From: Bacteroidales bacterium
Lineage (GTDB): Bacteria; Bacteroidota; Bacteroidia; Bacteroidales; Muribaculaceae
Length of the DNA: 37,567 bases
Direction of reading: 5' to 3'
Assembly: GCA_030536615.1 (NCBI GenBank)
Contig: JAUNPQ010000012.1
Location: 2,035-39,601 of the forward strand
Positions within the stretch are counted from its first letter, which is position 1; the number at the start of each line of letters is the position of its first letter. Below are positions 4,389 to 32,249 of this stretch, one piece after another. The position numbers and the translations under genes were made by a program. The notes below the pieces were generated by a model that worked only from the letters and a program-made list of their open reading frames with translations, ran no database searches and was not told where the DNA came from.

Positions 4389-5702
4389 ATGAAAGAAGAG
4401 TTGTTGAAAAAAATTGCAGATCGTGAGATTGTAGCAGGTGTTGTGGGTCTCGGATATGTTGGTCTTCCTCTTGCTGTTGAAAAAGCCAAAGCCGGCTTCA
4501 AGACAATCGGTTTTGATGTTCAGGCAGAAAAGGTTGACCTTGTCAATCAAGGTCATAATTATATCGGGGATGTTGTTGACAACGATTTGAAACAACTTGT
4601 TGATGATGGGAAGCTTTCTGCAACCACTGATTTCAGCCGTCTCAGCGAGGTGGATTTCGTGGCAATCTGTGTGCCCACACCTCTTGATGCGCATCAGCAG
4701 CCCGATATCAACTACGTGGAATCATCGGCTCGTTCTGTTGCTAAATATCTTCACAAAGGTATGATGGTTGTTCTTGAGTCAACCACATATCCTGGCACAA
4801 CTGAGGAGCTTCTCAAACCCATTCTTGAGCAATCCGGACTGAAATGCGGTGAGGATTTTTATCTTGGTTTCTCCCCTGAGCGTGTTGACCCCGGAAACGC
4901 CATCTACAAGACAAAGAATACTCCCAAGGTTGTGGGCGGTCTTGGTGCCGATGCCAGTGAGGTGATTTCTGCCATGTACGAGGCCGTGCTGCAGAACCAG
5001 GTGTTCCGCGCATCATCGCCTGCTGTGGCTGAGATGACTAAAATACTTGAGAATACATACCGCAACATCAATATCGGTCTTATAAATGAACTCGCTATCC
5101 TCTGCAACAGGATGAACATAAACCTCTGGGAGGTTATCGAGGCTGCCAAGACAAAACCATTCGGATTCACGGCGTTCTATCCCGGTCCCGGACTTGGCGG
5201 TCACTGCATCCCTCTTGATCCGTATTATCTGAGTTGGAAAGCCCGTGAATATGGCTTCCACACATCAATGATCGAAGCATCGATGATGGTCAATGACCGT
5301 ATGCCCGAGTATTGTGTTGCACGTGCGGCTGACATTCTGAACCGTCGCTTCAAGAAATCACTCAACGGATCAAAAGTGCTTGTGCTTGGTGTGGCATACA
5401 AACAGGATATTGATGACTATCGTGAATCACCCGCTATAAGCGTGATTGAGAACCTGCGCAAGGAAGGTGCTGAGACAGTGTTCTTTGATCCCTATATTCC
5501 CAAATTCCGTCATCACGGCAAGACCTACGAGGGCGAGAAAGAGCTGACCGCCGAACTCATTGAGGGCGCAGATCTGGTGGTGATAACCGCATCGCACTCA
5601 AACGTTGACTATGATTTTGTGCAGAAACACGCAAAAGCCATTTTCGACACAAAGAATGTGACCAAGAACCTTCAGGACAAAGAGAACATAGAAGTTCTCT
5701 GA
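4389..5702 (+). CDS. wbpA: Nucleotide-sugar 6-dehydrogenase, WbpA-like (UDP-GlcNAc to UDP-GlcNAcA)
   Basis: A UDP-sugar dehydrogenase of the UDP-Glc/ManNAc DH family, 437 aa, a typical length. The N-terminal Rossmann fold has VGLGYVGLPLAVEKAKAG. The catalytic cysteine is Cys273 in GPGLGGHCIPLDP, preceded by the NTYRNINIGLINELA helix. The C-terminal UDP-binding domain carries LGVAYKQDIDDYRESPA. The adjoining WbpD- and WbpE-like genes, and WbpB and WbpI homologues later in the same operon, indicate that it oxidises C6 of UDP-GlcNAc to start the UDP-ManNAc(3NAc)A route. This is inference: the sequence alone does not separate it from UDP-GalNAc or TviB-type enzymes. It is clearly different from the second dehydrogenase at 20591, so this is not a recent duplication. 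It is the first gene after the promoter. Confidence 0.88.
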   Translation: MKEELLKKIADREIVAGVVGLGYVGLPLAVEKAKAGFKTIGFDVQAEKVDLVNQGHNYIGDVVDNDLKQLVDDGKLSATTDFSRLSEVDFVAICVPTPLDAHQQPDINYVESSARSVAKYLHKGMMVVLESTTYPGTTEELLKPILEQSGLKCGEDFYLGFSPERVDPGNAIYKTKNTPKVVGGLGADASEVISAMYEAVLQNQVFRASSPAVAEMTKILENTYRNINIGLINELAILCNRMNINLWEVIEAAKTKPFGFTAFYPGPGLGGHCIPLDPYYLSWKAREYGFHTSMIEASMMVNDRMPEYCVARAADILNRRFKKSLNGSKVLVLGVAYKQDIDDYRESPAISVIENLRKEGAETVFFDPYIPKFRHHGKTYEGEKELTAELIEGADLVVITASHSNVDYDFVQKHAKAIFDTKNVTKNLQDKENIEVL

Positions 5703-5709
5703 TAGCGTT

Positions 5710-6279
5710 ATGGACGAGAAAAAGAACTGGTTTGTTCATCCCTCAAGTTATGTGGATGACGATGTAACTGTGGGTGACGGCACAAAAATATGGCATTTCT
5801 GCCATGTGCAGAAAGGCGCGTCGCTTGGCAAAAACTGCTCTCTGGGCCAGAATGTCAACATCGGCAATAATGTGCGCATAGGCAACGGCGTCCGCATACA
5901 GAACAACGTATCCGTCTATGAAGGCGTGGAGATTGAGGACAATGTGTTCTGCGGCCCCTCATGCGTGTTCACCAATGTGACAACCCCGCGTGCCCATTTC
6001 CCGGTTCACGGCATATATGCACGGACACTGATAAAAGAAGGCGCTTCACTGGGAGCCAACTCAACTGTTGTCTGCGGACATACGGTTGGACGCAGCGCCT
6101 TGATAGCTGCCGGAGCGGTTGTGACACGCGATGTCAAGGACTATGCGCTTATGACCGGCGTCCCGGCCCGTCAGCTCGGTTGGGTGTGTGAATGTGGTAA
6201 GCGCCTCGGTGACACACTTGAGTGTGAATGCGGCCGCCGCTACCGCCTGAAAGAAAATGATATTTTGGAAAAAATCTAA
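5710..6279 (+). CDS. wbpD: UDP-sugar 3-N-acetyltransferase, WbpD-like left-handed beta-helix
   Basis: A 189-residue hexapeptide-repeat acetyltransferase. Imperfect repeats (GDGTKIW, GQNVNIGNNVRIGNGVRIQ) form a left-handed beta-helix through about residue 130. WbpD/WlbB enzymes transfer acetyl from acetyl-CoA to the 3-amino group of UDP-GlcNAc(3NH2)A. The C-terminus has a small cysteine cluster (CECGKRL, then CECGRRY) seen in this family, perhaps a zinc site. The gene starts 7 nt after wbpA and ends 4 nt before wbpE, so the three are tightly coupled. The neighbours support this role over other hexapeptide acetyltransferases. Confidence 0.87.
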   Translation: MDEKKNWFVHPSSYVDDDVTVGDGTKIWHFCHVQKGASLGKNCSLGQNVNIGNNVRIGNGVRIQNNVSVYEGVEIEDNVFCGPSCVFTNVTTPRAHFPVHGIYARTLIKEGASLGANSTVVCGHTVGRSALIAAGAVVTRDVKDYALMTGVPARQLGWVCECGKRLGDTLECECGRRYRLKENDILEKI

Positions 6280-6283
6280 GAAT

Positions 6284-7414
6284 ATGCAATTCAGAGATTT
6301 AAAAAAACAATACGAAGTTTTGAAAGAGGACATTGACAAAGCCATGCTTGACGTGGCAGCGTCAAGTGCATACATCAGCGGTCCTCAGGTAAAAGAACTT
6401 GAAAAAGAGCTTGCTGAATATGTTGGCGTGAAGCACTGCATAAGCTGTGCAAACGGTACGGATGCCCTCACACTTGCCCTCATGGCCTGGGGAGTTAAAC
6501 CCGGTGACGCTGTGTTTGTTCCGGATTTCACGTTCTTCTCATCGGCAGAAGTCGTTTCATTTGAAGGCGCTACTCCTGTTTTTGTTGATGTTGACGCTGA
6601 CACATTCAATATGGATCCCGAGGATCTTGAGCGCAAGATCGAGGAGACAATCAAAGCAGGCATTCTCACACCCAAGGCCATTATTACCGTTGACCTTTTC
6701 GGACTGCCGGCAAACTATCCGGCAATACGCGCCATCGCCGACAGACATGGACTTCCCATCCTTGAGGACAGCGCCCAGGGCTTTGGTGGAGCAATAGAGG
6801 GGCAGCGTGACTGCAGTTTCGGTGACATTGCAACCACATCATTCTTCCCGGCCAAACCGCTTGGGTGCTATGGCGATGGTGGTGCATGCTTCACTGACAA
6901 TGACGAGTGGGCTGCCCTGATGGATTCATACCGGGTACATGGCAAGGGTACATTCAAATATGACAATGTGCGCATTGGCATGAACTCACGCCTTGACACT
7001 CTTCAGGCAGCCATTCTGCAGGTGAAACTGAAAGCCTTTGCTGACTATGAACTTGTCGATGTGAACAAAGCCGCCGTTGAATACACCAAGCGTCTTGACG
7101 GCGTGGTCGAGACTCCGGTGATGCCCCACGGATTCTATTCAAGCTGGGCACCGTACACCATCAAACTCGCTGACAAGCAGCAACGTGACGGCCTGCAGGC
7201 TCACCTTAAGGAAGCCGGTATCCCGTCAATGGTGTATTACCCTATTCCCATGCATAAAGAGACTGCATATAAGGATATGAACGTGAAAGACAGCTCATGC
7301 CCCGTCGCAACACATTTGTGCGATGTGGTGCTGTCACTGCCCATGCATCCGTATATTACAGTGGAACAAATTGATGAAATCTGCAAAGAAGTCAAAAAAT
7401 ACCTCGGAAAATAA
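6284..7414 (+). CDS. wbpE: DegT/DnrJ PLP aminotransferase, WbpE-like
   Basis: A 376-residue sugar aminotransferase of the DegT/DnrJ/EryC1 family. In the Wbp pathway it converts the 3-keto sugar made by WbpB into UDP-GlcNAc(3NH2)A, with glutamate as amino donor and 2-oxoglutarate as by-product. Visible signatures are the substrate/PLP segment NGTDALTLALMA, the ILEDSAQGFGG stretch holding the PLP-ring aspartate, and the Schiff-base lysine in TTSFFPAKPLG (Lys191 from this start). A later NSRLDTLQAAIL helix is also conserved. The ATG at 6284 is preferred to an in-frame one at 6257, which overlaps wbpD. Its partner dehydrogenase, WbpB, is not adjacent but 20 kb downstream in the same operon. Confidence 0.92.
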   Translation: MQFRDLKKQYEVLKEDIDKAMLDVAASSAYISGPQVKELEKELAEYVGVKHCISCANGTDALTLALMAWGVKPGDAVFVPDFTFFSSAEVVSFEGATPVFVDVDADTFNMDPEDLERKIEETIKAGILTPKAIITVDLFGLPANYPAIRAIADRHGLPILEDSAQGFGGAIEGQRDCSFGDIATTSFFPAKPLGCYGDGGACFTDNDEWAALMDSYRVHGKGTFKYDNVRIGMNSRLDTLQAAILQVKLKAFADYELVDVNKAAVEYTKRLDGVVETPVMPHGFYSSWAPYTIKLADKQQRDGLQAHLKEAGIPSMVYYPIPMHKETAYKDMNVKDSSCPVATHLCDVVLSLPMHPYITVEQIDEICKEVKKYLGK

Positions 7415-18311: not shown

Positions 18312-19403
18312 ATGAAGAAAGTATTGATCACATTGGGACATCCGGCACATTTTTATATCTATAAGAATGTGATTCCGCGACTGAAAGCTGACGGATATAG
18401 TGTAGAGATATTGATAAAAAAGAAAGATGTGTTGGAGGATTTGCTGAAAAATGCGCAGATCCCTTATCACAATATACTGAAAGAAGGACGTAAAGATTCA
18501 AAATTCGCCATGGCATGGGCAATGCTGAAAAGGACCTGGCGTATCGGCAAATTCTGCATGAAATATAAACCCGACATCATCACCGGAACAAGTGTCGAGA
18601 ACTCATATATCGGAAAACTGTTCCGCCGTCCGGTGATCAATGTAAATGAAGATGATGCGGCTGTGGTGCCTCTGTATGCCAAATTAGGCTATCCCTGGGC
18701 TACGGAGATACTGACACCTGTTGTCTGTGACAACGGCAAATGGAACGACAAGTCAACCAAATACGAAGGCTATCATGAACTTGCATATCTCCATCCAGAT
18801 AATTTTACGCCTGATAAAAAAATAGTAGAAAAATATTTTTCAGCCGATGAACCGTATTTTATAATCCGGTTCGCAAAACTGACTGCCCATCATGATAAAG
18901 GCGTGAAAGGTATCAATGCCGGGATTGCGACCCGCATCATAGAAATTCTCAAGCCGCATGGACGCGTGTTCATCACTTCCGAGCGTGCTCTTGAACCTTC
19001 TCTTGAGCAGTACCGGATAGCGATAAATCCATTGGACATGCACCATATAATGGCCTTTGCATCAATATATATAGGTGACAGCCAGACAATGGCGGCTGAA
19101 GCCGGAGTGCTGGGCGTTCCGTTTGTACGCTTCAATGACTTTGTGGGGCGCATCAGTTATCTTGCGGAACTTGAAGACAAGTATCAGCTTGGATATGGCG
19201 TACCCACCAACGAGGAGAACAAACTATATGAAGTGATTGAGAAACTCATGTCAATGGAAAACAGAAAAGAAGTTTTCAATGAGCGCAGAAACCTCATGCT
19301 CAAAGATAAGATTGATGTCGCTGAATTCCTTACGTGGTATATTGAGAACTATCCCGAGAGTAAAACTACAGAATATAAAGCTTCCGGAACAATAAAAAAT
19401 TGA
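18312..19403 (+). CDS. DUF354-family GT-B-like protein
   Basis: A 363-residue protein of the DUF354 family. It begins MKKVLITLGHPAHFYIYKN. Other visible marks are DIITGTSVENSYIGKLFRRP, FIIRFAKLTAHHDKG and the donor-side YIGDSQTMAAEAGVLGVP, which parallels the GDSQTMxxEA segment of this family. DUF354 proteins have a GT-B fold related to WecB/MurG and often sit next to WecB-like epimerases, as here (wecB begins 8 nt after its stop). A glycosyltransferase role, possibly for ManNAc or ManNAcA, is reasonable inference but not shown. There is no signal peptide or membrane segment. Confidence 0.82.
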   Translation: MKKVLITLGHPAHFYIYKNVIPRLKADGYSVEILIKKKDVLEDLLKNAQIPYHNILKEGRKDSKFAMAWAMLKRTWRIGKFCMKYKPDIITGTSVENSYIGKLFRRPVINVNEDDAAVVPLYAKLGYPWATEILTPVVCDNGKWNDKSTKYEGYHELAYLHPDNFTPDKKIVEKYFSADEPYFIIRFAKLTAHHDKGVKGINAGIATRIIEILKPHGRVFITSERALEPSLEQYRIAINPLDMHHIMAFASIYIGDSQTMAAEAGVLGVPFVRFNDFVGRISYLAELEDKYQLGYGVPTNEENKLYEVIEKLMSMENRKEVFNERRNLMLKDKIDVAEFLTWYIENYPESKTTEYKASGTIKN

Positions 19404-19411
19404 TCAGAAAA

Positions 19412-20563
19412 ATGAAAAAGATAATGTTGGTGTTTGGAACGAGGCCGGAAGCCATCAAAATGGCACCTCTGGTGAAAGAGTTCCAGAAACATCCTGAGGA
19501 TTTCCAGACAGTGGTCTGTGTGACCGGACAGCATCGTCAGATGCTGGATCAGGTACTGGATATATTCGAGATAAAACCGGATTATGATCTTGACATCATG
19601 AAGTCCGGTCAGGATCTTTATGACATCACATCGCGTGTGCTTCTGGGAATGAGAGACGTGTTGCGGGAATGTCACCCGGATGTTGTTCTTGTTCACGGGG
19701 ATACAACGACATCAACAGCCGCCGCGCTTGCAGCATTCTATCAGCAGATCCCTGTGGGGCATGTTGAAGCGGGCCTGCGCACTTATAACATATACAGTCC
19801 GTGGCCCGAGGAGATGAATCGTCAGCTCACAGGCAGGATAACGACATATCATTTTGCACCGACCCCTCTAAGCAAAGGAAATCTTTTGGCCGAGGGAATA
19901 GCAGAATCAAAGATTTTGGTTACAGGCAATACGGTGATTGACGCCCTCTATATGGTTGTCGATAAAATCAAGCAGTCCGCGGAGCTCGATGCAAGCCTCA
20001 GACATCTTATTTCTGAGGGCGGTTATGATGTTGACAGGCTTAAGGACGGCAGAAAACTTGTGCTGATCACCGGTCACAGGCGTGAGAATTTTGGCGATGG
20101 GTTTATGTCCATCTGTCGTGCCATCAAGACATTGGCTGAGAAATATCCGGATGTCGACTTTGTATACCCCATGCATCTCAATCCGAATGTGCGCAATCCT
20201 ATCCATGAGGTCTTTGGCGATATAACCGGCACAGACTCCAATATGTTCTTTATTGAGCCGCTTGAGTATATGTCATTCGTATATCTTATGGAAAAATCCG
20301 ATATAGTTCTTACAGACAGCGGAGGCATTCAGGAAGAGGCTCCCGGGTTGGGAAAACCTGTCCTTGTGATGCGTGACACCACAGAGCGGCCCGAAGCGCT
20401 TGAAGCTGGAACGGTTAAACTTGTGGGAACAGATTGTGAGAGAATAGTCAATGAGGTCTCAAGACTGATTGATGATGACACCCACTACAAGGAAATGTCA
20501 CAGGCCGTCAATCCGTATGGAGACGGAAAGGCCTGTGGCAGAATAGTTGAGAGTTTAAGATAA
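19412..20563 (+). CDS. wecB: UDP-GlcNAc 2-epimerase (non-hydrolysing)
   Basis: A 383-residue non-hydrolysing epimerase that interconverts UDP-GlcNAc and UDP-ManNAc. Visible family marks are LVFGTRPEAIKMAPL at the N-terminus, VVLVHGDTTTSTAAALAAFY, VGHVEAGLRT, the PEEMNRQLT segment, ITGHRRENFGDGF with its conserved His/Arg/Glu, and LTDSGGIQEEAPGLGKPVL. ATG 19412 is preferred to TTG 19400, which overlaps the preceding stop. The UDP-ManNAc dehydrogenase gene follows 27 nt later, so the pair makes UDP-ManNAcA. A second epimerase of the same superfamily at 23011 is distant in sequence and assigned to another step. Confidence 0.95.
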   Translation: MKKIMLVFGTRPEAIKMAPLVKEFQKHPEDFQTVVCVTGQHRQMLDQVLDIFEIKPDYDLDIMKSGQDLYDITSRVLLGMRDVLRECHPDVVLVHGDTTTSTAAALAAFYQQIPVGHVEAGLRTYNIYSPWPEEMNRQLTGRITTYHFAPTPLSKGNLLAEGIAESKILVTGNTVIDALYMVVDKIKQSAELDASLRHLISEGGYDVDRLKDGRKLVLITGHRRENFGDGFMSICRAIKTLAEKYPDVDFVYPMHLNPNVRNPIHEVFGDITGTDSNMFFIEPLEYMSFVYLMEKSDIVLTDSGGIQEEAPGLGKPVLVMRDTTERPEALEAGTVKLVGTDCERIVNEVSRLIDDDTHYKEMSQAVNPYGDGKACGRIVESLR

Positions 20564-20590
20564 TATAAAAACCGCAATAATATAATAGAT

Positions 20591-21799
20591 ATGAAAGCAT
20601 GTTTTATGGGTCTTGGCTACATTGGCCTGCCTACAGCGATTATTGCCGCAAAAGAAGGTGGCATAGAAATAGTTGGAGTAGATATCAATCCGTCAGTGGT
20701 TGAACAGACCAATGCCGGACATCTGCACATAATAGAACCCGGTGTGGAGGCAATGCTTCAGGAAGTGGTGAGCAACGGCAAACTCCATGCATCTGTAAAG
20801 CCCGAGGTCAGCGATGCCTATTTTATGGTTGTCCCTACGCCTTTCAAAGGTAATCATGAACCTGATGTCAGCTATGTGGAGGCTGCGACACGCGCGGTTA
20901 TTCCTTTGCTCAAAGAAGGGGATCTCTATGTCATAGAATCCACATCGCCGGTCGGAACAACAGAGATGATGGCTGAAATAATCTTTTCGGAACGTCCTGA
21001 ACTGAAAGGGAAAATTTACATTGCTTATTGCCCCGAGCGCGTTCTGCCCGGAAATGTCATATATGAACTGGTAAATAATGATCGCGTTATCGGTGGCCTT
21101 GATGAGGCATCGACAAAAAAGGCTCAGGAATTCTACAGCCGGTTTGTGAAAGGTACACTCCATTCAACAAACGCCCGTACGGCCGAGATGTGCAAACTCA
21201 CGGAGAATTCAAGCCGTGACGTGCAGATTGCTTTCGCCAATGAGTTGAGTCTGATATGTGATAAAGCCGGGATAAATGTCTGGGAATTGATAAATCTGGC
21301 AAACAAGCATCCGCGTGTAAACATCCTGCAGCCCGGATGCGGTGTGGGCGGTCATTGTATAGCGGTTGACCCGTACTTCATCACTGCTGATTTTCCGGCT
21401 GAGTCCAAAATCATTGCCACTGCGCGCGAGATAAACAATTACAAAGCTTTCTGGTGCGCCGAGAAGGTCAAGAACGCCATGCTTGAGTTTGAACTCAAAA
21501 ATAACCGCAAACCGGTTGTTGCCATGATGGGCCTTGCGTTCAAACCCAATATTGATGACCTGCGCGAGTCACCGGCCAAGAATATTGTTGCAAAAGTGAT
21601 GCAGGGCGCCAATAATGCTGATATCCTTGTTGTTGAGCCGTGTGTCAAGGAGCACAAAGTGTTCAAGCTCACAGACTATAAGGCGGCCTACGAGAAGGCT
21701 GACATCGTGGTTATGCTTACCGCTCATGACCAGTTCAAGACACTTCCGTATGACAATAACAAGGTGATTCTGGATTTCTGTGGTATTTACAAAAAGTAA
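20591..21799 (+). CDS. wecC: UDP-ManNAc 6-dehydrogenase, WecC-like
   Basis: A 402-residue UDP-sugar dehydrogenase. The Rossmann loop is MGLGYIGLPTAIIAAKEG, followed by VVPTPFK and STSPVGTTE. The catalytic cysteine is Cys256 in GCGVGGHCIAVDPYF. The C-terminal domain has MGLAFKPNIDDLRESPA. The GCGVGGHCIAVDP form and the 402-residue length fit WecC better than WbpA/TviB. It would convert the UDP-ManNAc made by the adjacent WecB to UDP-ManNAcA with two NAD+. After the stop there is an 81-nt gap with a strong hairpin before the FRG gene. Confidence 0.92.
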   Translation: MKACFMGLGYIGLPTAIIAAKEGGIEIVGVDINPSVVEQTNAGHLHIIEPGVEAMLQEVVSNGKLHASVKPEVSDAYFMVVPTPFKGNHEPDVSYVEAATRAVIPLLKEGDLYVIESTSPVGTTEMMAEIIFSERPELKGKIYIAYCPERVLPGNVIYELVNNDRVIGGLDEASTKKAQEFYSRFVKGTLHSTNARTAEMCKLTENSSRDVQIAFANELSLICDKAGINVWELINLANKHPRVNILQPGCGVGGHCIAVDPYFITADFPAESKIIATAREINNYKAFWCAEKVKNAMLEFELKNNRKPVVAMMGLAFKPNIDDLRESPAKNIVAKVMQGANNADILVVEPCVKEHKVFKLTDYKAAYEKADIVVMLTAHDQFKTLPYDNNKVILDFCGIYKK

Positions 21800-21880: not shown

Positions 21881-23014
21881 ATGAGAGATCTGAGACCACC
21901 GTTCGTTTCATCAACGATAGCTACACATCTTGACGGCTTCGGTGTTGAGAAAGTGAAGAGCTTCAGGGACATTGCCGGTAATCCGCCGTTGCGGCTCAAC
22001 GGATTTGAGCATCTGCGCACGGAGATTGCCCGGCTGTCTGTGGCAAATCCCAACTCAATATTGTTTTACCGTGGACAGAATAAGGATTATTTGCGTGACA
22101 GGGTGTCTACAATCATGCCGTCAATTTACCGTAACGGCGCAGAACTTATTGATGACCGTAATCTGAAATTACGGTGGCGTGATCTGAAAATCAAGTCGCG
22201 GCTGTTATGCGAAGAGGTTGAAAAAAGAAAGATTGAAAATTATTCCATAATCAAATCAAGGAAACTTATCCAGTGGAGCATTCTCCAGCATTATGAGGCC
22301 GCAATGACGCCCTTGACTGATGTGACACAATCAATCCGTGTAGCCGCATCGTTCGCCACATTGAACAATGACTCAGACAGTGCCGTGATCTATGTGTTCG
22401 CGTTACCGTATTATCACAACCGCATATCACGTAATTCCGAGGAGGTCCTTACCAATATCCGCTTGTTGAGCCTATGTCCGTCAGAAGCCAAAAGACCGTA
22501 TTATCAGGAAGGGTTTCTGATAGGAGAGGAGGATATTGAGTTCGGTGGAAAAGTTCTGGAGTCGTATGATCTCAGACGTCGGATGATTGCCAAGTTTGAG
22601 ATCCCGAATACCCCTGAGATGTGGGGCGCTGATGAAACTCCGCTGACATATGAGAGGCTTTATCCTGAGGGAGATGTATTCACTGACATATGTCGGACCA
22701 TAAAAGATCAGGCTGCCGAGGAGTTGAGATTGTCAGACGTACCTTATACCGAGGAGGAGATATTTGAGGCAATGATATGGTGGAGAAAGATTGAAAATCT
22801 GCTGACAGAAAAGGTGGGACATGATGGCAGGACGCCGCTGTCAGAGATACTCAAGGCACTTGATAATCCACGGTTGTCACGGCGCATCGGACTGGCACAT
22901 AGATCAATCATGGCATTGATGCATCCCCGGCTCGCGGCACCGGCCCATTCCCAGGCATATCTTCTGGATATGCGTGGCACATACCAACAGCTAAAACAAA
23001 ATTTGAACAGATGA
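21881..23014 (+). CDS. FRG-domain protein
   Basis: A 377-residue soluble protein whose first 200 residues match the FRG domain (PF08867, named for its Phe-Arg-Gly motif). ILFYRGQNKDYL carries the YRG-type motif, IMPSIYRN follows, and ILQHYEAAMTPLTDVTQS then VAASFATLN corresponds to the usual QHYGxPTxLLDWT...AxxFA block. The remaining part (about residues 200-377) is mostly helical with no domain I recognise. FRG domains occur in many bacterial proteins, including some linked to phage defence; their biochemical activity is unsettled in my knowledge. It is not a known part of polysaccharide synthesis, yet its stop overlaps the wbpI start by 4 nt (ATGATAA), so it is translated with the pathway. 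Its base composition does not stand out from its neighbours. Confidence 0.72.
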   Translation: MRDLRPPFVSSTIATHLDGFGVEKVKSFRDIAGNPPLRLNGFEHLRTEIARLSVANPNSILFYRGQNKDYLRDRVSTIMPSIYRNGAELIDDRNLKLRWRDLKIKSRLLCEEVEKRKIENYSIIKSRKLIQWSILQHYEAAMTPLTDVTQSIRVAASFATLNNDSDSAVIYVFALPYYHNRISRNSEEVLTNIRLLSLCPSEAKRPYYQEGFLIGEEDIEFGGKVLESYDLRRRMIAKFEIPNTPEMWGADETPLTYERLYPEGDVFTDICRTIKDQAAEELRLSDVPYTEEEIFEAMIWWRKIENLLTEKVGHDGRTPLSEILKALDNPRLSRRIGLAHRSIMALMHPRLAAPAHSQAYLLDMRGTYQQLKQNLNR

Positions 23015-24153
23015 TAAAACTACTGACGGTGATCGGCGCCAGGCCACAGATCATAAAAGCCGCCGCCATTTCAAGGGAGATTGCCCTGAATTTTTCAGAT
23101 GAGGTCCGGGAAAAAATCCTGCATACAGGGCAACATTATGACAATAATATGTCGGCCGTGTTTTTCAGTGAGCTTGGGATTCCTGCTCCTGATTATAATC
23201 TCGGCGTAGGCTCGGGCTCACACGGGGTGCAGACTGCAAAAATGATTGAAGGCATTGAGAAAGTTTTTCAAGATGAGCATTTTGACGGGATTGTACTCTA
23301 TGGCGATACCAACTCTACGCTTGCCGGCGCTGTGGCGGCATCCAAACTCCATGTACCGATTTTCCATATTGAGGCCGGTCTGCGTTCATTCAACATGGCC
23401 ATGCCTGAGGAAGTAAACCGGATTGTCTGCGACCAACTGTCATCAATATTGTTCGCCCCCACACAGACGGCTTGCCAAAATCTGAAAGCTGAGGGTTTCG
23501 ATGCCTCCAAGGCCACGTTTGCCGACGGTTCCAAAAGAAAAGTTGTTAACAGCGGAGATGTGATGTATGACAACAGTCTGTATTTCTCGCAGATTTCAGC
23601 GCAGCATACGTCAATAATCGCAGACCTTGACCTGATCCCGGGCAATTTCATACTGTCAACCATTCATCGCAACAACAATACTGATGAACCGGAACGTCTG
23701 GAGGCCATTGTACGCGCACTCCTTGATATTGCTGAGGAGGCACAGAAGACGGTCGTGCTCCCGTTGCATCCCCGCACATCGAAGCTGTTGCCGCAGAATC
23801 TCAGCAGTGAGACATACCACAGGCTCATGCACAGCCCGTGGATAAAGGTCATACCACCGGTGTCATTTTTCGAGATAATAGAACTTGAAAAAAATGCCAT
23901 GTTGGTCATGACTGATAGTGGCGGTGTGCAGAAAGAGGCCTTTTTCTTTGCCAAACCATGTGTCATACTGCGCCCGGAAACAGAATGGGTTGAAATTGTT
24001 GAGAACAATGCCGGTGTGATTGCCGATGCTGATTATGACAGAATCAGGGCAGCCTATAATGAACTGTCCTCACGAAAAGTGACATTCCCGCCGTTGTTCG
24101 GTGACGGACATGCAGCCCGTAAGATCCTTGAAAACATCATAGGCTATAAATAA
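23011..24153 (+). CDS. wbpI: WbpI-like UDP-GlcNAc(3NAc)A 2-epimerase
   Basis: A 380-residue non-hydrolysing epimerase of the WecB superfamily, closest in pattern to WbpI. The N-terminus LTVIGARPQIIKAAAISREI replaces the GTRPE form of WecB. It also has LHTGQHYDNNMSAVFF, LGVGSGSHGVQTAKMIEGIE, FHIEAGLRSF and PEEVNRIVCDQLS. STIHRNNNTD stands at the GHRREN position and MTDSGGVQKEAFFF near the C-terminus. WbpI converts UDP-GlcNAc(3NAc)A to UDP-ManNAc(3NAc)A, the last step after WbpA, B, E and D, all encoded in this operon. A MnaA/WecB activity on UDP-GlcNAc is less likely because a canonical WecB is present at 19412. It overlaps the FRG gene by 4 nt and the oxidoreductase by 1 nt. Confidence 0.88.
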   Translation: MIKLLTVIGARPQIIKAAAISREIALNFSDEVREKILHTGQHYDNNMSAVFFSELGIPAPDYNLGVGSGSHGVQTAKMIEGIEKVFQDEHFDGIVLYGDTNSTLAGAVAASKLHVPIFHIEAGLRSFNMAMPEEVNRIVCDQLSSILFAPTQTACQNLKAEGFDASKATFADGSKRKVVNSGDVMYDNSLYFSQISAQHTSIIADLDLIPGNFILSTIHRNNNTDEPERLEAIVRALLDIAEEAQKTVVLPLHPRTSKLLPQNLSSETYHRLMHSPWIKVIPPVSFFEIIELEKNAMLVMTDSGGVQKEAFFFAKPCVILRPETEWVEIVENNAGVIADADYDRIRAAYNELSSRKVTFPPLFGDGHAARKILENIIGYK

Positions 24154-27100
24154 TGACGGAGATACTTACCGACACACTTCATAAGATAGCATACAGCACA
24201 GACGCAAGCATATACCGCGAAGTGCCGTATGGCGTGGCATATCCCCGCAATGGCGAGGATATTGTCGCTCTTCTGGATGCTGCCCGTCAGAAGGGCACGC
24301 ATCTGATTGGGCGCTGCGGCGGCACCTCGATAGCCGGTCAGGTTGTAGGGAGCGGCATAGTGGTTGATTTCAGCAGGCATATGAACCGCATCATTGAGAT
24401 TGATGCCGAAAGTCAGACTGCCACGGTTGAGCCGGGTGTGGTACGCGACGAGTTGAATATGGCATTGAAGCCTTACGGGCTGTTCTTCAGTCCGGAAACC
24501 TCAACAAGCAACCGTTGCTGCATTGGCGGAATGTTCGGCAATAACTCATGTGGCGCGCATTCACTTGTCTACGGCAGCACACGTCACCATGTTGTGGAGG
24601 CCAAAGGCATTCTGGCCGATGGCACAGCGGAACATTTCAGAACCTATACGGTCGCGGAACTGGAAAACCGCTTTGGAAAGGAGTTCTGGCAGAAAGCCGA
24701 AGCCGGCTCTTTGGCAGAAAGGATCTACGGCCTTCTGATAAGATTTGCACTCAATGATGATGTCACATCAGTGATAGACAGCAGTTTCCCTGACAAGACA
24801 TTGCGCCGGCGCAGCTGCGGTTATGCCATTGATGAAGTTATAGAACCGTTGCGTGACACCACAGTGCCGTTAGCGGACAGAACACTGAATCTTTGCCCGT
24901 TGCTGTCAGGGAGCGAGGGCACTCTGGCTCTTGTCACTCAGATAAAAGTGAGCCTTGATCCGTTGCCGCTCCCTGAATCCATGATGCTGTGTGTGCATTG
25001 TGACACATTGCAGAAGTGTTTTGCCGCCAATCTGGTTGCGTTGCGCCATTCACCGGAGGCCATAGAACTGATGGACAAGCCGGTGCTTGATCTGAGCCGT
25101 GACAATCTGGCACAGCAGCACAACCGGTTTTTCATAAACGGTGATCCGGCCGGAATACTTTGCGTGGAACTGCGTGCCGCAACCGCCGAGGAGCTTAAGG
25201 CGAAAGCGTCAGCAGCCGAGAAAGATCTGATTGGGTCCGGCCTGGTCTATCATGTGACGCATGTTGCAGGCAGCGACATGAGCCGTGTGTATGGCCTCAG
25301 AAAGGCCGGACTTGGGCTGCTTAGCGGCATGAAAGGCGATGCCAAGCCCATTGGCGTCATTGAGGATACGGCTGTCGCGCCAGAACGTCTCGGCGCTTTT
25401 ATAGCTGACCTTGACGCTATGCTTGCCGAATTGGGGCTGAGTTGCGTCTATTACGGCCATATAAGCACCGGCGAGCTGCATCTTCGCCCAATAATAAACA
25501 TCAAGGATGCCGCGGGTAAGCGCAATTTCCGTGAGGTTGCTCTGCGCACTGCCCGACTCGTGAAAAAACACAAGGGCAGCCTGAGCGGAGAGCACGGTGA
25601 CGGCCGCTTGCGCGGCGAGTTTATTCCATTGGTGTATGGTGACACAGCCTATGAGCTCATGCGGACAGTCAAGGGGACATTTGATCCGGAAGGTTTGCTC
25701 AACATAGGTAAAATCATTGATACTCCCCCCATGGATGCGTGTCTGCGTTTTGAACCGGGCCAGCAGTATGCTGTGGCCGGTGAACTGACAGGGGGCAAGA
25801 CATATTTCAACTGGCGTGCCGCTTTTGATGAATGCGACACCCCCGGGGCAAGCGGAGTGACATCGCAATGTCACGCTCTGATGTGTTCGGTTGAACAATG
25901 CAACGGAGCCGGTGACTGCCGCAAGTCAAACAGAGTGGGGGGCACACTTTGCCCGGCATTCAAGGTGAGCGGCGATGAGATGAACACAACGCGGGCCAGA
26001 GCAAATGTTATCCGCGAGATTCTTACACGTGGTTCGGCGTCCGAGGCTTTATCGGCGCAGGCCAAAGGCGGCGCGCTTACCGGCGATGAACTAAAATATA
26101 TGCTTGACTCATGTCTGGCATGCAAGGGATGCAGGAGCGAATGCCCGTCGAATGTGGACATGACAAAGTTGCGGGCAGAGTTGTTGCAGCAACGGTATGA
26201 CAAGACTGGAACGCCGCTGCGTATACGCATGGTGGCTTATATGTCTGTTTTCTCAAAACTTGGGATGATAGCTCCGTGGGCATATAATACGATGACAGGC
26301 TGGTCTGTGACCGCTGCAATGCTTAAGAAAGTGCTCGGATTTGCTTCACAGCGACGCATTCCGGGTCTGAGCCGACGTACCATGCGCGCCCTTGTGAAGC
26401 GTGAGATGCGCCGTAGTGAGGCACATACATTCAGAAACGGGAAAGTATATCTTTTTGCGGATGAGTTCACCAACTATCAAGAGGCCCGGCTGGGACTTGA
26501 TTTCGCACGGTTGCTGATGGCATTGGAATATGAGGTTGAAATTCCCCGGCATGTTGAAAGTGGCAGGGCTGCCATCTCAAAGGGCATTCTCAAATATGCG
26601 CGCAAGTGTGCCGAACGCAATGTGGAAATACTGTCGGGCATTGTTAGCAAAGAGACGCCTTTGGTGGGCATAGAGCCGTCATGCATCCTGTCGTTCCGCG
26701 ATGAATATCCTGACCTTGTGAGTGCTGATAATCGTGCCGAAGCCAAGCGCCTGGGTGCCGATTGCCTGCTCTTTGATGAATTCCTGCTGCGTGAGATTGA
26801 GGCGGGACGCATCACGGCTGAATCATTCAGCAATGCCTCCGCGCAGATCTGGCTGCATGGACACTGCCATCAGAAATCGCTTATCGGAGTGGATAAAACG
26901 GCTGAAGTTATGCGCCGTCTTCTCAACGCCAAGGTAAATGTGATTCCAAGCGGATGCTGCGGCATGGCAGGTTCTTTCGGGTATGAAAAAGCGCATTATG
27001 ATACATCAATGGCCATTGGCGAGATGGTGCTTTTCCCGGCGGTGCGCAAGGCAGCTGAGTCACACCCGGATGCCATAGTGGCGGCTCCCGGTACATCATG

Positions 27101-27179
27101 CCGGCATCACATAAAGGATGGAACGGGATTTACTGCCCGTCATCCGATTGAAATTTTATATGAATATCTGAAACCCTAA
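24153..27179 (+). CDS. FAD-binding and Fe-S oxidoreductase, YdiJ/GlcD-GlcF-like (possible 2-hydroxyglutarate dehydrogenase)
   Basis: A 1008-residue fusion of a GlcD-like FAD half and a GlcF-like iron-sulphur half, the layout and length of YdiJ-type D-2-hydroxyacid dehydrogenases. The FAD domain has PRNGEDIVALLDAAR, CGGTSIAGQVVG and IGGMFGNNSCGAHS. SGEHGDGRLRGEF (about residues 475-490) is the catalytic/FAD-linked block. The iron-sulphur part has EQCNGAGDCR, GTLCPAFK and a ferredoxin-type CLACKGCRSECPSNVDM cluster. The C-terminal CCG-like motifs are GHCHQKSL and SGCCGMAGSFGYE. There is no membrane segment; electrons may pass to quinone or another carrier. The ATG overlaps the wbpI stop by one base, and wbpB starts 14 nt after its stop. 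That position suggests oxidation of 2-hydroxyglutarate released by WbpB (inference). D-lactate or glycolate dehydrogenase are alternatives. Confidence 0.85.
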   Translation: MTEILTDTLHKIAYSTDASIYREVPYGVAYPRNGEDIVALLDAARQKGTHLIGRCGGTSIAGQVVGSGIVVDFSRHMNRIIEIDAESQTATVEPGVVRDELNMALKPYGLFFSPETSTSNRCCIGGMFGNNSCGAHSLVYGSTRHHVVEAKGILADGTAEHFRTYTVAELENRFGKEFWQKAEAGSLAERIYGLLIRFALNDDVTSVIDSSFPDKTLRRRSCGYAIDEVIEPLRDTTVPLADRTLNLCPLLSGSEGTLALVTQIKVSLDPLPLPESMMLCVHCDTLQKCFAANLVALRHSPEAIELMDKPVLDLSRDNLAQQHNRFFINGDPAGILCVELRAATAEELKAKASAAEKDLIGSGLVYHVTHVAGSDMSRVYGLRKAGLGLLSGMKGDAKPIGVIEDTAVAPERLGAFIADLDAMLAELGLSCVYYGHISTGELHLRPIINIKDAAGKRNFREVALRTARLVKKHKGSLSGEHGDGRLRGEFIPLVYGDTAYELMRTVKGTFDPEGLLNIGKIIDTPPMDACLRFEPGQQYAVAGELTGGKTYFNWRAAFDECDTPGASGVTSQCHALMCSVEQCNGAGDCRKSNRVGGTLCPAFKVSGDEMNTTRARANVIREILTRGSASEALSAQAKGGALTGDELKYMLDSCLACKGCRSECPSNVDMTKLRAELLQQRYDKTGTPLRIRMVAYMSVFSKLGMIAPWAYNTMTGWSVTAAMLKKVLGFASQRRIPGLSRRTMRALVKREMRRSEAHTFRNGKVYLFADEFTNYQEARLGLDFARLLMALEYEVEIPRHVESGRAAISKGILKYARKCAERNVEILSGIVSKETPLVGIEPSCILSFRDEYPDLVSADNRAEAKRLGADCLLFDEFLLREIEAGRITAESFSNASAQIWLHGHCHQKSLIGVDKTAEVMRRLLNAKVNVIPSGCCGMAGSFGYEKAHYDTSMAIGEMVLFPAVRKAAESHPDAIVAAPGTSCRHHIKDGTGFTARHPIEILYEYLKP

Positions 27180-27193
27180 TATACTTAATTGTT

Positions 27194-28177
27194 ATGGAAA
27201 AGAAAAATTTTGCATTGATCGGTGCCGCGGGTTACATTGCTCCCCGGCATATCAAGGCTATTGCCGACACCGGCAACGACCTTGTTGTGGCTTATGACAA
27301 ATTTGACAGTGTGGGACGTCTTGACAGCTCTTTCCCCGAATGTTCTTTCTTTACTGAAAACGAGCAGTTTGACCGTTTCTGTCAGCGTCAGCAGAAAACC
27401 GACAATCCTCTGCATTGGACATCCATATGCACCCCGAACTATACCCATGACCCTTTCATCCGCTATGGATTGCGTCTTGGCACTGATGTGATTTGTGAGA
27501 AACCCCTCACCCTCAATCCCCGCAATATCGACGAACTCATGGAGGTTGAGAAGGAAACAGGCCACAAGGCATATACCATCCTCCAACTCCGTCTGCATGA
27601 CTCAATTGTTGCCCTGAAGAAGAAAGTTGATGAAGGACCCAAAGACAAGATATATGATGTTGATCTGACCTATATCACATCGCGCGGCAAATGGTACTAT
27701 ACATCATGGAAAGGTGATGTGCACAAGAGCGGCGGTATAGCCACCAACATCGGTGTGCATTTCTATGACATGCTTCAGTGGATTTTCGGTCCTGTCAAGA
27801 AGAATATTGTTCATGTGATGAGCTTTGACCGTGTTGCCGGCTATCTTGAGTTTGAAAAGGCACGTGTGCGTTATTTCCTCAGCATCAACGCTGACTGTCT
27901 GCCTGCAAATGCTGTTCAGGGCGAGAAAAAGACTTATCGCACCATCAACATTGACGGTAATGAGTTTGAGTTCAGCGCCGGTTTCACTGAACTGCACACT
28001 GAAAGCTACAAGAAGATATTTGCCGGCGAAGGCTTCCGTATCAGCGAGGCCCGCAACTGCATACAGATTGTCAGCGATATACGCCACTCAACTCCTATCG
28101 GTCTTGTTGGTGACTATCATCCTCTGGCTAAATTGCCGCTCAGCGTTCATCCTTTCGGATGGGACGAGAAGCGTTAA
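27194..28177 (+). CDS. wbpB: WbpB-like UDP-GlcNAcA 3-dehydrogenase (Gfo/Idh/MocA family)
   Basis: A 327-residue Gfo/Idh/MocA oxidoreductase. The Rossmann fold starts NFALIGAAGYIAPRHIKAI, closely resembling WbpB/WlbA. Catalytic EKP is in VICEKPLTLNPRNIDEL, and LTYITSRGKWYYTSWKGD and KSGGIATNIGVHFYDM are the substrate-binding signatures. It oxidises C3 of UDP-GlcNAcA to the 3-keto sugar used by WbpE. Family knowledge: enzymes of this group hold NAD(H) tightly and regenerate NAD+ with 2-oxoglutarate, which itself comes from the WbpE transamination. It is the last gene of the operon, 14 nt after the FAD/Fe-S oxidoreductase and just before a strong terminator. It is separated by about 20 kb from wbpADE. 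Confidence 0.92.
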   Translation: MEKKNFALIGAAGYIAPRHIKAIADTGNDLVVAYDKFDSVGRLDSSFPECSFFTENEQFDRFCQRQQKTDNPLHWTSICTPNYTHDPFIRYGLRLGTDVICEKPLTLNPRNIDELMEVEKETGHKAYTILQLRLHDSIVALKKKVDEGPKDKIYDVDLTYITSRGKWYYTSWKGDVHKSGGIATNIGVHFYDMLQWIFGPVKKNIVHVMSFDRVAGYLEFEKARVRYFLSINADCLPANAVQGEKKTYRTINIDGNEFEFSAGFTELHTESYKKIFAGEGFRISEARNCIQIVSDIRHSTPIGLVGDYHPLAKLPLSVHPFGWDEKR

Positions 28178-28250: not shown

Positions 28251-30392
28251 TCAGGCTTGTTCGCCGTTCAGAATTTCAAGCATCTTTATCGCTGACCATG
28301 GAATGCGTGTGCCCGGGCCAAAGATGGCTGCGACACCGGCCTTGTAAAGGAAGTCATAGTCCTGTGCGGGAATCACACCGCCGGCAGTAACAAGGATGTC
28401 CTCACGGCCAAGTTTCTTCAGCTCGGCAATAACCTGGGGTATAAGTGTCTTGTGTCCGGCAGCCAATGATGACACACCAAGGATGTGCACGTCATTTTCA
28501 ACAGCCTGACGGGCAGCTTCTGCCGGAGTCTGGAACAGCGGTCCCATGTCAACGTCAAAACCACAGTCGGCATAACCGGTAGCAACTACTTTCGCACCGC
28601 GGTCATGTCCGTCCTGACCCATCTTGGCAATCATTATACGCGGCTGACGGCCTTCGCGTTTTGCGAACTCAGCGCACATCTCCTGAGCTTTCTTGAAGTC
28701 AGGATCATTCTTTGTTTCGTTTGAATACACGCCTGAAATTGTTCTGATTATTGCTTTGTAACGGCCCACAACATCCTCGCAGGCATCTGAGATCTCGCCG
28801 AGTGTGGCACGGAGTCCTGCGGCTTTTACTGCCAGATCAAGCAGGTTGCCTTTCTTGGTGCGTACACATTCTGTGATGGCTGCAAGGGCCTCTTTGACTT
28901 TTGCTTCGTCGCGATGTGCTTTGACATCGTTGAGGCGTTCAATCTGCTCTTTACGCACTTCTGTATTGTCAATTTCAAGGATGTCAATGGGATCTTCGTG
29001 CTCAAGACGGTACTTGTTTATGCCGACAATTGTCTGACGTCCCGAGTCGATGCGTGCCTGAGTGCGTGCAGCAGCCTCTTCAATACGCAGTTTGGGCAGT
29101 CCGGTCTCGATAGCCTTTGCCATACCGCCGAGTTTTTCAATCTCCTGGATGTGCTCCCATGCACGGTGTGCGATTTCGTCAGTGAGGGCTTCAATATAGT
29201 ATGAGCCGCCCCAGGGATCAATCTGTTTGGTGACCAGAGTCTCCTCCTGAATGTAGATCTGGGTGTTACGGGCAATACGTGCCGAGAAATCAGTGGGAAG
29301 CGCTATTGCTTCATCGAGTGCATTGGTGTGCAGTGACTGAGTGTGTCCCAGTGCGGCGCCCATAGCTTCTATACATGTGCGGCCAACGTTGTTGAAAGGA
29401 TCCTGCTCGGTCAGTGACCATCCTGATGTCTGTGAGTGTGTGCGCAGGGCAAGTGATTTGGGGTTCTTGGGATTGAACTGTTTCACGATCTTGGCCCAGA
29501 GCATGCGTGCCGCACGCATCTTGGCCACCTCCATGAAGTAGTTCATGCCGATTGCCCAGAAGAATGACAGACGCGGAGCAAATGAGTCAATGTCCATGCC
29601 TGCGTTCACACCGGCGCGCAGGTATTCCAGACCGTCGGCAAGGGTATAGGCCAATTCGATGTCACATGTGGCACCGGCTTCCTGCATATGGTAGCCGGAG
29701 ATGGATATCGAGTTGAATTTTGGCATGTTCTGGGAGGTGTATTCAAAGATATCGGCTATGATACGCATTGAGAATTCCGGCGGATAGATATATGTGTTGC
29801 GCACCATGAATTCCTTGAGAATGTCATTCTGGATGGTTCCGGCCATTTCCTCAAGTTTGGCACCCTGCTCCAGACCGGCATTGATATAGAATGCAAGCAC
29901 AGGAAGAACGGCGCCGTTCATTGTCATGGAGACAGACATTTTGTTCAGAGGTATGCCGTCAAACAGAACTTTCATATCCTCTACTGAGCAGATTGACACT
30001 CCGGCTTTACCAACGTCACCGACCACACGCTCATGGTCTGCGTCGTATCCGCGGTGTGTGGCAAGGTCAAATGCCACAGAAAGACCTTTCTGTCCGGCGG
30101 CAAGATTGCGGCGGTAGAAGGCATTTGATTCTGCTGCGGTGGAGAATCCGGCGTATTGGCGGATGGTCCAGGGACGCAGAGGATACATGGCGCTGTACGG
30201 GCCACGCAGGAATGGGGGAAGTCCGGAAACGAAATCAAGATGCTCAAGACCTTCCAGATCCTCTTTCGTGTATATAGGTTTTACGGGGATGAGTTCAGGC
30301 GTGAGCCATTCCTCGCCTTTGAGGACGGGAGCGGCGTGTTTTTCGCCGAAACCGTCTTTTGTGATATCTATGGTTTTGAAATCAGGTTTCAT
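28251..30392 (-). CDS. mutB: Methylmalonyl-CoA mutase, large (catalytic) subunit
   Basis: A 713-residue adenosylcobalamin-dependent mutase subunit that interconverts succinyl-CoA and (R)-methylmalonyl-CoA. The TIM-barrel half contains [46 protein letters not shown] and [19 protein letters not shown]. The C-terminal B12-binding domain has the base-off signature in [10 protein letters not shown] (DxHxxG), with [11 protein letters not shown] further on. Length and architecture match the family. In Bacteroidales it leads to propionate production from succinate. It lies 9 nt after mutA, so the two are one operon transcribed away from the polysaccharide locus. No epimerase or MeaB-type chaperone gene is present in the window. 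Confidence 0.97.
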
Positions 30393-30401
30393 GATAGCAT
30401 T

Positions 30402-32249
30402 TTATTTTAGAAGACGGTTGTTGAAATCTTTGAGGGTATCAAGGACGTTGCAGCGAACATGGACAAAATCGTTTATGCCTATGGCCTTGAGGTCATCCAT
30501 GCATGCCGGTGAGCCGGCCACAACGAACTGTGCGCGTCCGTCAAGGTATTTGAATGCCTCGGGAGCAAGTGTGGCATATTCGTCATCGCTTGAGCAGAGC
30601 ACAATCACATCAGCTTCTTTTTCAAGGGCTGCGTCAATGCCTTCCTGTACGGTGTTGAACCCGAGGTTGTCAATGATCTCATAGCCTGCGCAACCAAAGA
30701 AGTTGGTTGAGAACTGTGCGCGTGCAAGGCGCATGGCCAGATTGCCGATGGTGAGCATAAACACTTTGGGACGTTTTGCGGCTGCCTCGGTGGCAAGACG
30801 CAGTTCCTCGAAGTCTGTGGCTGCACGTTTCATGAGCAGGCCGCCATTGTTGTCGGTGTTGCATGAGCATGAGCACTGGCCTTCTTTCCTGACAATCTTG
30901 CCGGCAGCCTTCTCGTTGATGTTGGGATACTGGTTCGTTCCCAGAAGAATCTCTTTACGACGGGCAACATCGGTGTGTCGTTTCTGGCAGCTCTCATTTA
31001 CAGCAGTCTGTACTTTGCCTTCGTTGACAAGCTTGAAGAAGCCGCCTTCATCAACAACGCTCAGGAAAAGTTTCCAGGCTTCCGTTGCTATGGATGCGGT
31101 GAGGGTCTCCACGTAATAGGAACCGCCGGCAGGGTCAACCACTTTGTCAAGATGACTTTCTTCTTTGAGCAGGAACTGCTGGTTGCGGGCAATACGCTCC
31201 GAGAATGCATCGGGTGTCTGATAGGGGACATCAAACGGAGTTGTGGTGATGGAGTCAACACCGGCCACTGCGGCTGAGAATGATTCGGTCTGACTGCGGA
31301 GCAGATTCACGTGAGCGTCATAGATAGTCTGGTTGAACTTTGATGTCTCAGCGTGGCAGAGCATCTTGGCGGCACATGAGCATGTGGGTTTGTATTGCTC
31401 AACAATCTGTGCCCAGAGCATGCGTGCAGCACGGAATTTGGCTATCTCCATGAAGAAGTTTGATGAAACTCCCATGTTGAATTTGATGCGGCATGCCACT
31501 TCTGTGGCGTCCATGCCGGCATCAGTGAGAAGTGTCATCCAGTCTGCGCCCCATGCCAGAGCATATCCCAGTTCCTGGAAAATATATGCACCACCGTTGC
31601 AGAACATGACGCTGTCCACTGAAAGGACGCGCAACCCTTTGACGGGCTTCACAACCTCAAGAAGCTGTTTGGCCTGCTCCACAACATTGTCGCTGACTTT
31701 TCCGGCACCATGGCGCAGAGCTTTGCGGAGCGGGTTGTAGTCAATGGAACCTTTGAATGATTCCAAAGCGTTGTTGTCGGTGAGATATTTTACCAATGCT
31801 GTCGCAAGATCAAGCGCTTTGTTGGGGCAGCAGCTGAAGTTTATTTCTATTTTGGAAATGTCAATGCCTTTCAGCAGGGTCTCAACGGTCTGATAGTCGG
31901 CGGTTTCCACTTTGAATCCAAGTGATGTTACACCTTTTGTGAGCACGTCAAGAGCTGTTTTGTTGGCTTCCTGTGCGTTGTCGGCGATGATCTCCTGGCG
32001 TGTCAGCCAGTCATTGTCGTTGCGTGTGCCACGAACATACGGGAATTCGCCGGGAAGTGAGTCTGTAGATTTCATGTCTTTTATGTCCTCTTGACGATAG
32101 ATGGGCTGGACATTGAAACCTTCATTTGTTCTCCACACCAATTTCTTGTTGAAATCAGCACCTTTCAGGTCTGTCTCAACTTTGGCTCGCCATTCATCAT
32201 AGCTTACCGGTGCAAATTGGTCGAACAGTTTTTCTTTTTTTTCTGCCAT
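30402..32249 (-). CDS. mutA: Methylmalonyl-CoA mutase, small subunit
   Basis: A 615-residue non-catalytic partner of the mutase. It begins with VSYDEWRAKVETDLKGADF, followed by VWRTNEGFNVQPIYRQED, typical of MutA. The barrel is recognisable through [17 protein letters not shown] and VVDPAGGSYYVETLT. The C-terminal B12-like domain (about residues 500-615) lacks the DxHxxG cobalamin motif, as expected for the small subunit. An oddity is a short cysteine-rich piece in the linker, GQCSCSCNTDNNGG, as well as PTCSCAAKMLCH in the barrel. It is the first gene of the mutAB operon, about 90 nt downstream of a consensus promoter start. Confidence 0.95.
   Translation of the reverse strand: MAEKKEKLFDQFAPVSYDEWRAKVETDLKGADFNKKLVWRTNEGFNVQPIYRQEDIKDMKSTDSLPGEFPYVRGTRNDNDWLTRQEIIADNAQEANKTALDVLTKGVTSLGFKVETADYQTVETLLKGIDISKIEINFSCCPNKALDLATALVKYLTDNNALESFKGSIDYNPLRKALRHGAGKVSDNVVEQAKQLLEVVKPVKGLRVLSVDSVMFCNGGAYIFQELGYALAWGADWMTLLTDAGMDATEVACRIKFNMGVSSNFFMEIAKFRAARMLWAQIVEQYKPTCSCAAKMLCHAETSKFNQTIYDAHVNLLRSQTESFSAAVAGVDSITTTPFDVPYQTPDAFSERIARNQQFLLKEESHLDKVVDPAGGSYYVETLTASIATEAWKLFLSVVDEGGFFKLVNEGKVQTAVNESCQKRHTDVARRKEILLGTNQYPNINEKAAGKIVRKEGQCSCSCNTDNNGGLLMKRAATDFEELRLATEAAAKRPKVFMLTIGNLAMRLARAQFSTNFFGCAGYEIIDNLGFNTVQEGIDAALEKEADVIVLCSSDDEYATLAPEAFKYLDGRAQFVVAGSPACMDDLKAIGINDFVHVRCNVLDTLKDFNNRLLK

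Follow-up and report, generated by a model that had tools for sequence, protein, structure and literature searches.

The window analyzed here is a stretch of 37,567 nucleotides (nt) from a Bacteroidales bacterium of the family Muribaculaceae (assembly GCA_030536615.1, contig JAUNPQ010000012.1, positions 2,035 to 39,601 of the forward strand). It carries homologues of the wbp sugar genes and, embedded between wbpI and wbpB, a gene for a large flavin adenine dinucleotide (FAD)/Fe-S oxidoreductase, hereafter D (Table 1). Domain content, active-site residues, gene linkage and co-occurrence across genomes indicate that D is probably a YdiJ-like D-2-hydroxyglutarate (D-2-HG) dehydrogenase serving WbpB in this operon.

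The open reading frame (ORF) of D starts with ATG and encodes 1008 amino acids, and it is the sole strong D copy in its genome. At the wbpI/D junction, the motif TAATG combines the wbpI stop codon (TAA, 24151-24153) with the D start codon, and a gap of 14 nt separates the end of the D stop codon from the wbpB ATG. This layout agrees with the preliminary description of the locus, as does the sugar-operon setting proposed there: homologues of wbpA, wbpD, wbpE, wbpI and wbpB were all identified in the window by Pfam, the gene names being our own assignments from these matches. Because the wbpA-, wbpD- and wbpE-like genes at 4389-7414 join wbpI and wbpB, the UDP-ManNAc3NAcA pathway, as outlined in the accessible text of PMC10622841, looks complete.

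Pfam placed FAD_binding_4 (8e-36) and FAD-oxidase_C (4e-42) on D, together with weak 4Fe-4S dicluster matches, and the C-terminal half matched GlpC models. Both FAD domains and a Cys-rich Fe-S half are thus carried on one chain, in the domain order of YdiJ, and the cysteines of the predicted clusters (C583, C589, C600, C654, C657, C660, C664, C905, C935 and C936) are also Cys in YdiJ. The best NCBIfam model was the YdiJ D-2-HG dehydrogenase (NF049975; 562 bits, E 1.8e-168), with a score below the curated equivalog cut-off of 1350 bits, and alignment with E. coli YdiJ was near full-length (405 bits, 29% identity). Judged by these sequence comparisons, D is a remote YdiJ-like relative, to be classed apart from the YdiJ equivalog.

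Table 1 Genes of the window with a proposed role in the D-2-HG cycle and the UDP-ManNAc3NAcA pathway
Feature	Position	Strand	Basis
D, YdiJ-like FAD/Fe-S oxidoreductase, proposed D-2-HG dehydrogenase	24153..27179	+	ORF, Pfam/NCBIfam, YdiJ alignment, residues
wbpB-like Gfo/Idh dehydrogenase, UDP-GlcNAcA 3-dehydrogenase, proposed D-2-HG source	27194..28177	+	Pfam; nearest 3oa2/3o9z
wbpI-like UDP-sugar 2-epimerase	23011..24153	+	Pfam; 1-nt overlap with D
wbpE-like DegT aminotransferase	6257..7414	+	Pfam
wbpD-like hexapeptide N-acetyltransferase	5710..6279	+	Pfam
wbpA-like UDP-sugar 6-dehydrogenase	4389..5702	+	Pfam

Linkage and co-occurrence of D with wbp genes

Overall, D and wbp genes were found in one locus 12 times, in several gene orders (L and G handles denote loci and genomes). 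Besides wbpI-D-wbpB in the window, a 4-nt overlap joins wbpI and D in the metagenome-assembled genome (MAG) of Prevotella sp. RUI435 (L088), wbpE-D-wbpD overlap in turn in a rumen MAG (L092), and a reindeer MAG (L093) has the order D-wbpD with 5 nt at the junction. The order D-wbpB occurs in a red-deer MAG (L090) and in L068/G245, wbpI-wbpB-D in L065/G195, wbpD-wbpB-x-D in L063 and L064 (x being about 0.9 kb), and wbpD-D, with wbpB elsewhere, in L076/G224; wbpB-wbpE-x-wbpI-D was also observed among the linked loci. In Bacteroides fluxus YIT 12057 (L174/L175) and L195/G711, D belongs to a same-strand capsule locus in which it lies 6.4-14.5 kb beyond an upstream wbpB-wbpE-wbpD-wbpA, with a DegT aminotransferase and a sugar transferase downstream. 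In two further loci, L114 and L116, the sole matches were distant and wbpA-like (33-34%), and both loci were scored as unlinked.

Since linkage recurs elsewhere, the wbpI-D-wbpB arrangement is more than chance. Five D/wbpB pairs were found within 10 kb for 0.75 expected (four for 0.74 without the window, P 0.007), and four within 2 kb without the window for 0.15 expected (P 2e-5), figures to be read as orders of magnitude given their assumptions of uniform placement, genomes of 3.5 and 4.5 Mb, single copies and independence (G183 and G079 are from the same family). The differing gene orders argue for D-wbp linkage having been assembled more than once. In a quick 68-row tree (35 rows of alignment A1, 32 loci out of the 80 and E. 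coli YdiJ, with G711 (L195) left out), accounting for the linked label takes 8 changes, of which starred branches force at least 6, for a mean of 10.3 when labels were shuffled (13 of 500 shuffles were as low as 8); support on this tree is SH-aLRT only, under a single model for all columns, and its changes cannot separate gain from loss. The starred 20-row set holding the window's D comprises 10 linked and 10 unlinked rows.

Co-occurrence was evaluated in an order draw (247 genomes, D called at E <= 1e-60) and a phylum draw (345 genomes, E <= 1e-100), in which D was present in 162 and 144 genomes, respectively. The order draw held 131 genomes with both genes, 19 with wbpB only, 31 with D only and 66 with neither (odds ratio 14.6 without the window genome), two weak WbpB matches (G002 and G054) being scored absent and fragments present. 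When each of the 120 families was represented by a single genome, the counts were 66, 10, 14 and 30 (odds ratio 14, or 13.9 without the window genome), the family codes of some unlisted genomes being deduced from how the draw was numbered and 8 of the 247 genomes excluded for lack of a code. For the phylum draw they were 48, 23, 96 and 178 (odds ratio 3.9, or 3.8 without the window genome). Across the 17 informative families varying in wbpB, 4 agree with the association (one being the window's own), none opposes it and 13 are ties.

Within the window's family (198 genomes), D was detected in 4 genomes, any WbpB match in 8 and a close WbpB (>600 bits) in 3, each of which also has D; the five more distant WbpBs were all in genomes without D. 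The hypergeometric probability of 3e-6 for this family counts the window genome, which was picked for having both genes; for the remaining 197 genomes (3 with D and 2 with a close WbpB, these 2 also having D) it is 1.6e-4, or 0.003 when any WbpB match is considered. Among the genomes behind the first 13 of the 80 D loci, 10 encode WbpB. Co-occurrence may partly track lineage or genome size, which per-family and within-family counting lessen and do not remove. The preliminary description had staked its proposal on an association with wbpB reaching beyond this locus, to be sought by a survey of genomes, and the association was found, both as co-occurrence and as physical linkage in other genomes.

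Several observations weigh against a dedicated role in the wbp pathway. No wbp homologue was found in the fetched flanks of 74 of the 80 D loci (B. fluxus is among the 74, its linkage lying farther out), and linkage was confined to the window's order within the genomes searched, the rest of the phylum draw showing no D near wbpB among the matches listed. In addition, D is missing, at the threshold used, from G101, G126 and G008, whose WbpBs rank second to fourth in closeness within the order draw. D could instead be a general D-2-HG dehydrogenase, its substrate coming from SerA-type or other promiscuous dehydrogenases, and its nearness to wbpB a bystander effect. Since the D-only genomes of both draws indicate that the D family has other jobs, D is mostly unlinked to wbp genes, and the window's genome encodes a SerA-like protein (1.5e-56, under the family cut-off, next to one weaker candidate) for its single strong D copy, this alternative retains some weight. 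We nevertheless consider it unlikely: D-wbp linkage recurs in differing gene orders and with coding overlaps, one of two sister D copies in G195 lies inside a wbp locus and the other outside, and the window's genome gave no match to HglS, another D-2-HG producer (see below). In the window's own family, moreover, D goes with close WbpB and its presence in so few genomes marks it as non-housekeeping. SerA was also tried as a partner of D with TIGR01327, for which none of the 247 order genomes scored above the family cut-off and the listed matches were short; because this model fails to split SerA from its kin there, SerA co-occurrence was left uncounted.

Some of the surveyed genomes carry further wbp arrangements. 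In G195, which carries an intact wbpB-D pair, the wbpB of another wbp locus with the order wbpE-wbpD-wbpB-wbpA is disrupted, with three stops inside the match (L067, G195:C1:1659442-1660362). In G224, two tandem wbpB genes, 61% and 68-70% identical to that of the window (L075, G224:C1:731268-733260), lie about 0.94 Mb from the D gene beside wbpD (L076). The order in L068 is sugar transferase-D-wbpB-export-export-wzc, which looks split in a Paludibacteraceae MAG, with transferase-D in L095 and wbpB adjoining export genes in L176; wbpB likewise adjoins export genes in L177, from the genome of L094.

Substrate pocket and other neighbors of D

The equivalents of the human D-2-HG dehydrogenase residues Arg386, His434, His441, Glu475 and His476 are kept in all 115 aligned rows, the window included. 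Other pocket positions differ from the human-type enzyme (6lpn): its C5-carboxylate residues Thr390, Lys401 and Asn443 are unmatched in the sequence alignment, D having L387, I403 and R445. The Asn443 position is Arg in YdiJ as well (the pocket Arg of an HxRP motif) and in 103 of the 115 rows, including all 11 wbp-linked and all 8 HglS-linked ones.

These residues bear on whether D might be a dehydrogenase of D-lactate, glycolate or another 2-hydroxyacid unrelated to WbpB chemistry. Such an activity would fit the best sequence matches of D in the PDB, a glycolate oxidase and a D-lactate dehydrogenase, and the top ranks of Foldseek and VIA, where D-lactate dehydrogenases came first; as a means to tell D substrates apart, this fold comparison was non-discriminating. 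However, the YdiJ model outscores its NCBIfam rivals on D (GlpC, 208 bits; GlcD, 164 bits), and the Asn443 position, Arg in D as in YdiJ, is hydrophobic in GlcD and D-lactate dehydrogenases (PMC7801405) and Val in a 940-amino-acid paralogue from the same genome. Of the two recurrent neighbors of D, in addition, HglS produces D-2-HG and WbpB is expected to do so, and we regard a lactate, glycolate or unrelated 2-hydroxyacid activity as very unlikely.

Among the neighbors clustered with D in the 80 loci, HglS (2-oxoadipate dioxygenase, PF07063) is the commonest family (8 of 80: L099, L102, L108, L123, L147, L151, L152 and L162). It lies upstream of the D relative, within about 100 nt in 4 loci, and the linked records include Bacteroidales, Flavobacteriaceae, Weeksellaceae and Sphingobacteriaceae. 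By a rough chance figure, 0.11 cases would be expected within 3 kb of D where 8 were observed. According to the available text of PMC7286885, HglS converts 2-oxoadipate to D-2-HG; its linkage is an independent pointer to D-2-HG as the substrate of D, through a second producer tied to the D family. wbpB is a neighbor in 4 of the 80 loci, and each remaining family in at most 5, including, by eye, a transporter-type pump and a SusC-like receptor, with others unassigned. In L181, the second ORF upstream of D encodes a D-isomer 2-hydroxyacid dehydrogenase. Action of D on the sugar itself, as a DprE1-like oxidase for an unusual capsule sugar, is hardly credible given the five 2-hydroxyacid/metal residues kept in every row and eight HglS-linked loci with no match to the window's sugar genes.

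A distinct pocket was seen in ten D relatives (L125, L133, L134, L142, L143, L144, L149, L150, L154 and L159), which have Q for K at 398 together with E for R at 445, none of them among the wbp-linked or HglS-linked loci. That these pocket residues differ together suggests a different substrate for this subset.

Proposed role of D in the wbp operon

WbpB enzymes form two classes, a ping-pong type with 2-oxoglutarate (P. aeruginosa) and a sequential type (B. pertussis, C. violaceum), as described in the accessible part of PMC10622841. Against the PDB, the window's WbpB scored 367 bits with 3oa2 ("WbpB") and 302 bits with 3o9z ("wbpB"), vs 45 bits with 3q2k and 35 bits with 3q2i. We take these entries to be the P. 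aeruginosa, T. thermophilus, B. pertussis and C. violaceum enzymes, in that order. The T. thermophilus WbpB belongs to the ping-pong class. Because of these bit scores, we place the window's WbpB with the 2-oxoglutarate-using ping-pong type, away from the WlbA type.

The preliminary description had left open whether WbpB releases the enantiomer that D would oxidize. P. aeruginosa WbpB releases D-2-HG and is inhibited by it (PMC8651671, available sections), which answers the question for the closest characterized homologue and fits YdiJ, which is reported to be strictly specific for D-2-HG (PMC9504171, available sections). In P. aeruginosa, deletion of the D-2-HG dehydrogenase PA0317 also clearly lowered O-antigen, for which the authors tentatively blame WbpB inhibition (PMC8651671).

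Specifically, WbpB would oxidize UDP-GlcNAcA at C3, and its bound NADH would be re-oxidized by 2-oxoglutarate to yield D-2-HG. WbpE, represented in the window by its aminotransferase gene, would be expected to supply 2-oxoglutarate from glutamate. At its FAD/metal site, D would convert D-2-HG back to 2-oxoglutarate, which would lift the inhibition of WbpB and, together with WbpE, complete the 2-oxoglutarate loop. Electrons would leave through the Cys-rich GlpC/LutA-like half of D to an acceptor, with quinone, ferredoxin and flavodoxin as candidates; the window's genome encodes cytochrome bd. If the overlapping genes are co-transcribed, translational coupling would match this sink to its source. 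Taken together, the residues, linkage, co-occurrence and P. aeruginosa precedent uphold as a strong inference the proposal that the operon carries its own by-product repair step.

More tentatively, D-2-HG may act as a mobile electron carrier, from the sugar C3-H to the NADH of WbpB, on to the 2-oxoglutarate/D-2-HG couple, D and the quinone pool, in a relay assembled more than once. If such a relay exists, which we see as possible and no better than that, capsule-sugar synthesis would be a respiratory process with its rate set by the membrane redox state, and a YdiJ-like enzyme would have been recruited into wbp operons more than once.

The closest known system is that of P. aeruginosa, in which a dehydrogenase reverts the D-2-HG formed by WbpB from 2-oxoglutarate and its loss lowers a wbpB-dependent polysaccharide. 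The P. aeruginosa dehydrogenase is presumably a short protein that lacks an Fe-S half and is encoded away from the wbp genes. It is described as FAD- and Zn-dependent in the accessible text of PMC12756731, whereas the window's D is YdiJ-like, with an Fe-S half, and lies inside the operon. According to PMC8651671, the commonest neighbors of d2hgdh are gntR, ETF, serA, cdaR, lldP and glcF. Since the coupling is already published for P. aeruginosa, novelty is limited to the operonic form, and a dehydrogenase serving WbpB in the window would be largely an operonic variant of it, well supported on comparative-genomic grounds. YdiJ of E. coli and P. ananatis shares domain order, catalytic residues, Fe-S cysteines and the pocket Arg with D, and is discussed in the available part of PMC9504171 in relation to SerA and L-serine synthesis. 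In HglS-dependent lysine catabolism, D-2-HG likewise goes to 2-oxoglutarate (PMC7286885), the proposed producer in the window being WbpB instead. Finally, wbp genes of another member of the Bacteroidetes, Porphyromonas gingivalis, are required for its anionic polysaccharide; there, the wbp homologues have scattered locus numbers, and the accessible main text mentions neither hydroxyglutarate nor FAD (PMC4031482). Literature searches, which covered few subscription papers, showed, among the matches listed, neither a report of an operonic D-wbp link nor an assay of this enzyme family in Bacteroidota.

D-2-HG is known mainly as an oncometabolite and a by-product of serine synthesis; in this operon, it appears to be an intermediate built into the making of a surface polysaccharide. 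A recycling enzyme inside the operon would give a large enzyme family a testable function, generalize the P. aeruginosa finding and predict that capsule output will vary with the clearance of D-2-HG. B. fluxus YIT 12057, which belongs to a named species with a sequenced genome and has D in a wbp-containing capsule locus, offers an experimental handle.

Other genes of the window

WecB/WecC-type genes at 19400-21799 suggest that a second acidic sugar is made. Between wecC and wbpI, an FRG-domain protein of 377 amino acids (PF08867, 21881-23014) shares 4 nt with wbpI; the other loci compared against the window genes yielded no homologue of it. On the opposite strand at 28251-32249, an apparent methylmalonyl-CoA mutase with both subunits, recognized from translations read by eye, adjoins and converges with wbpB.

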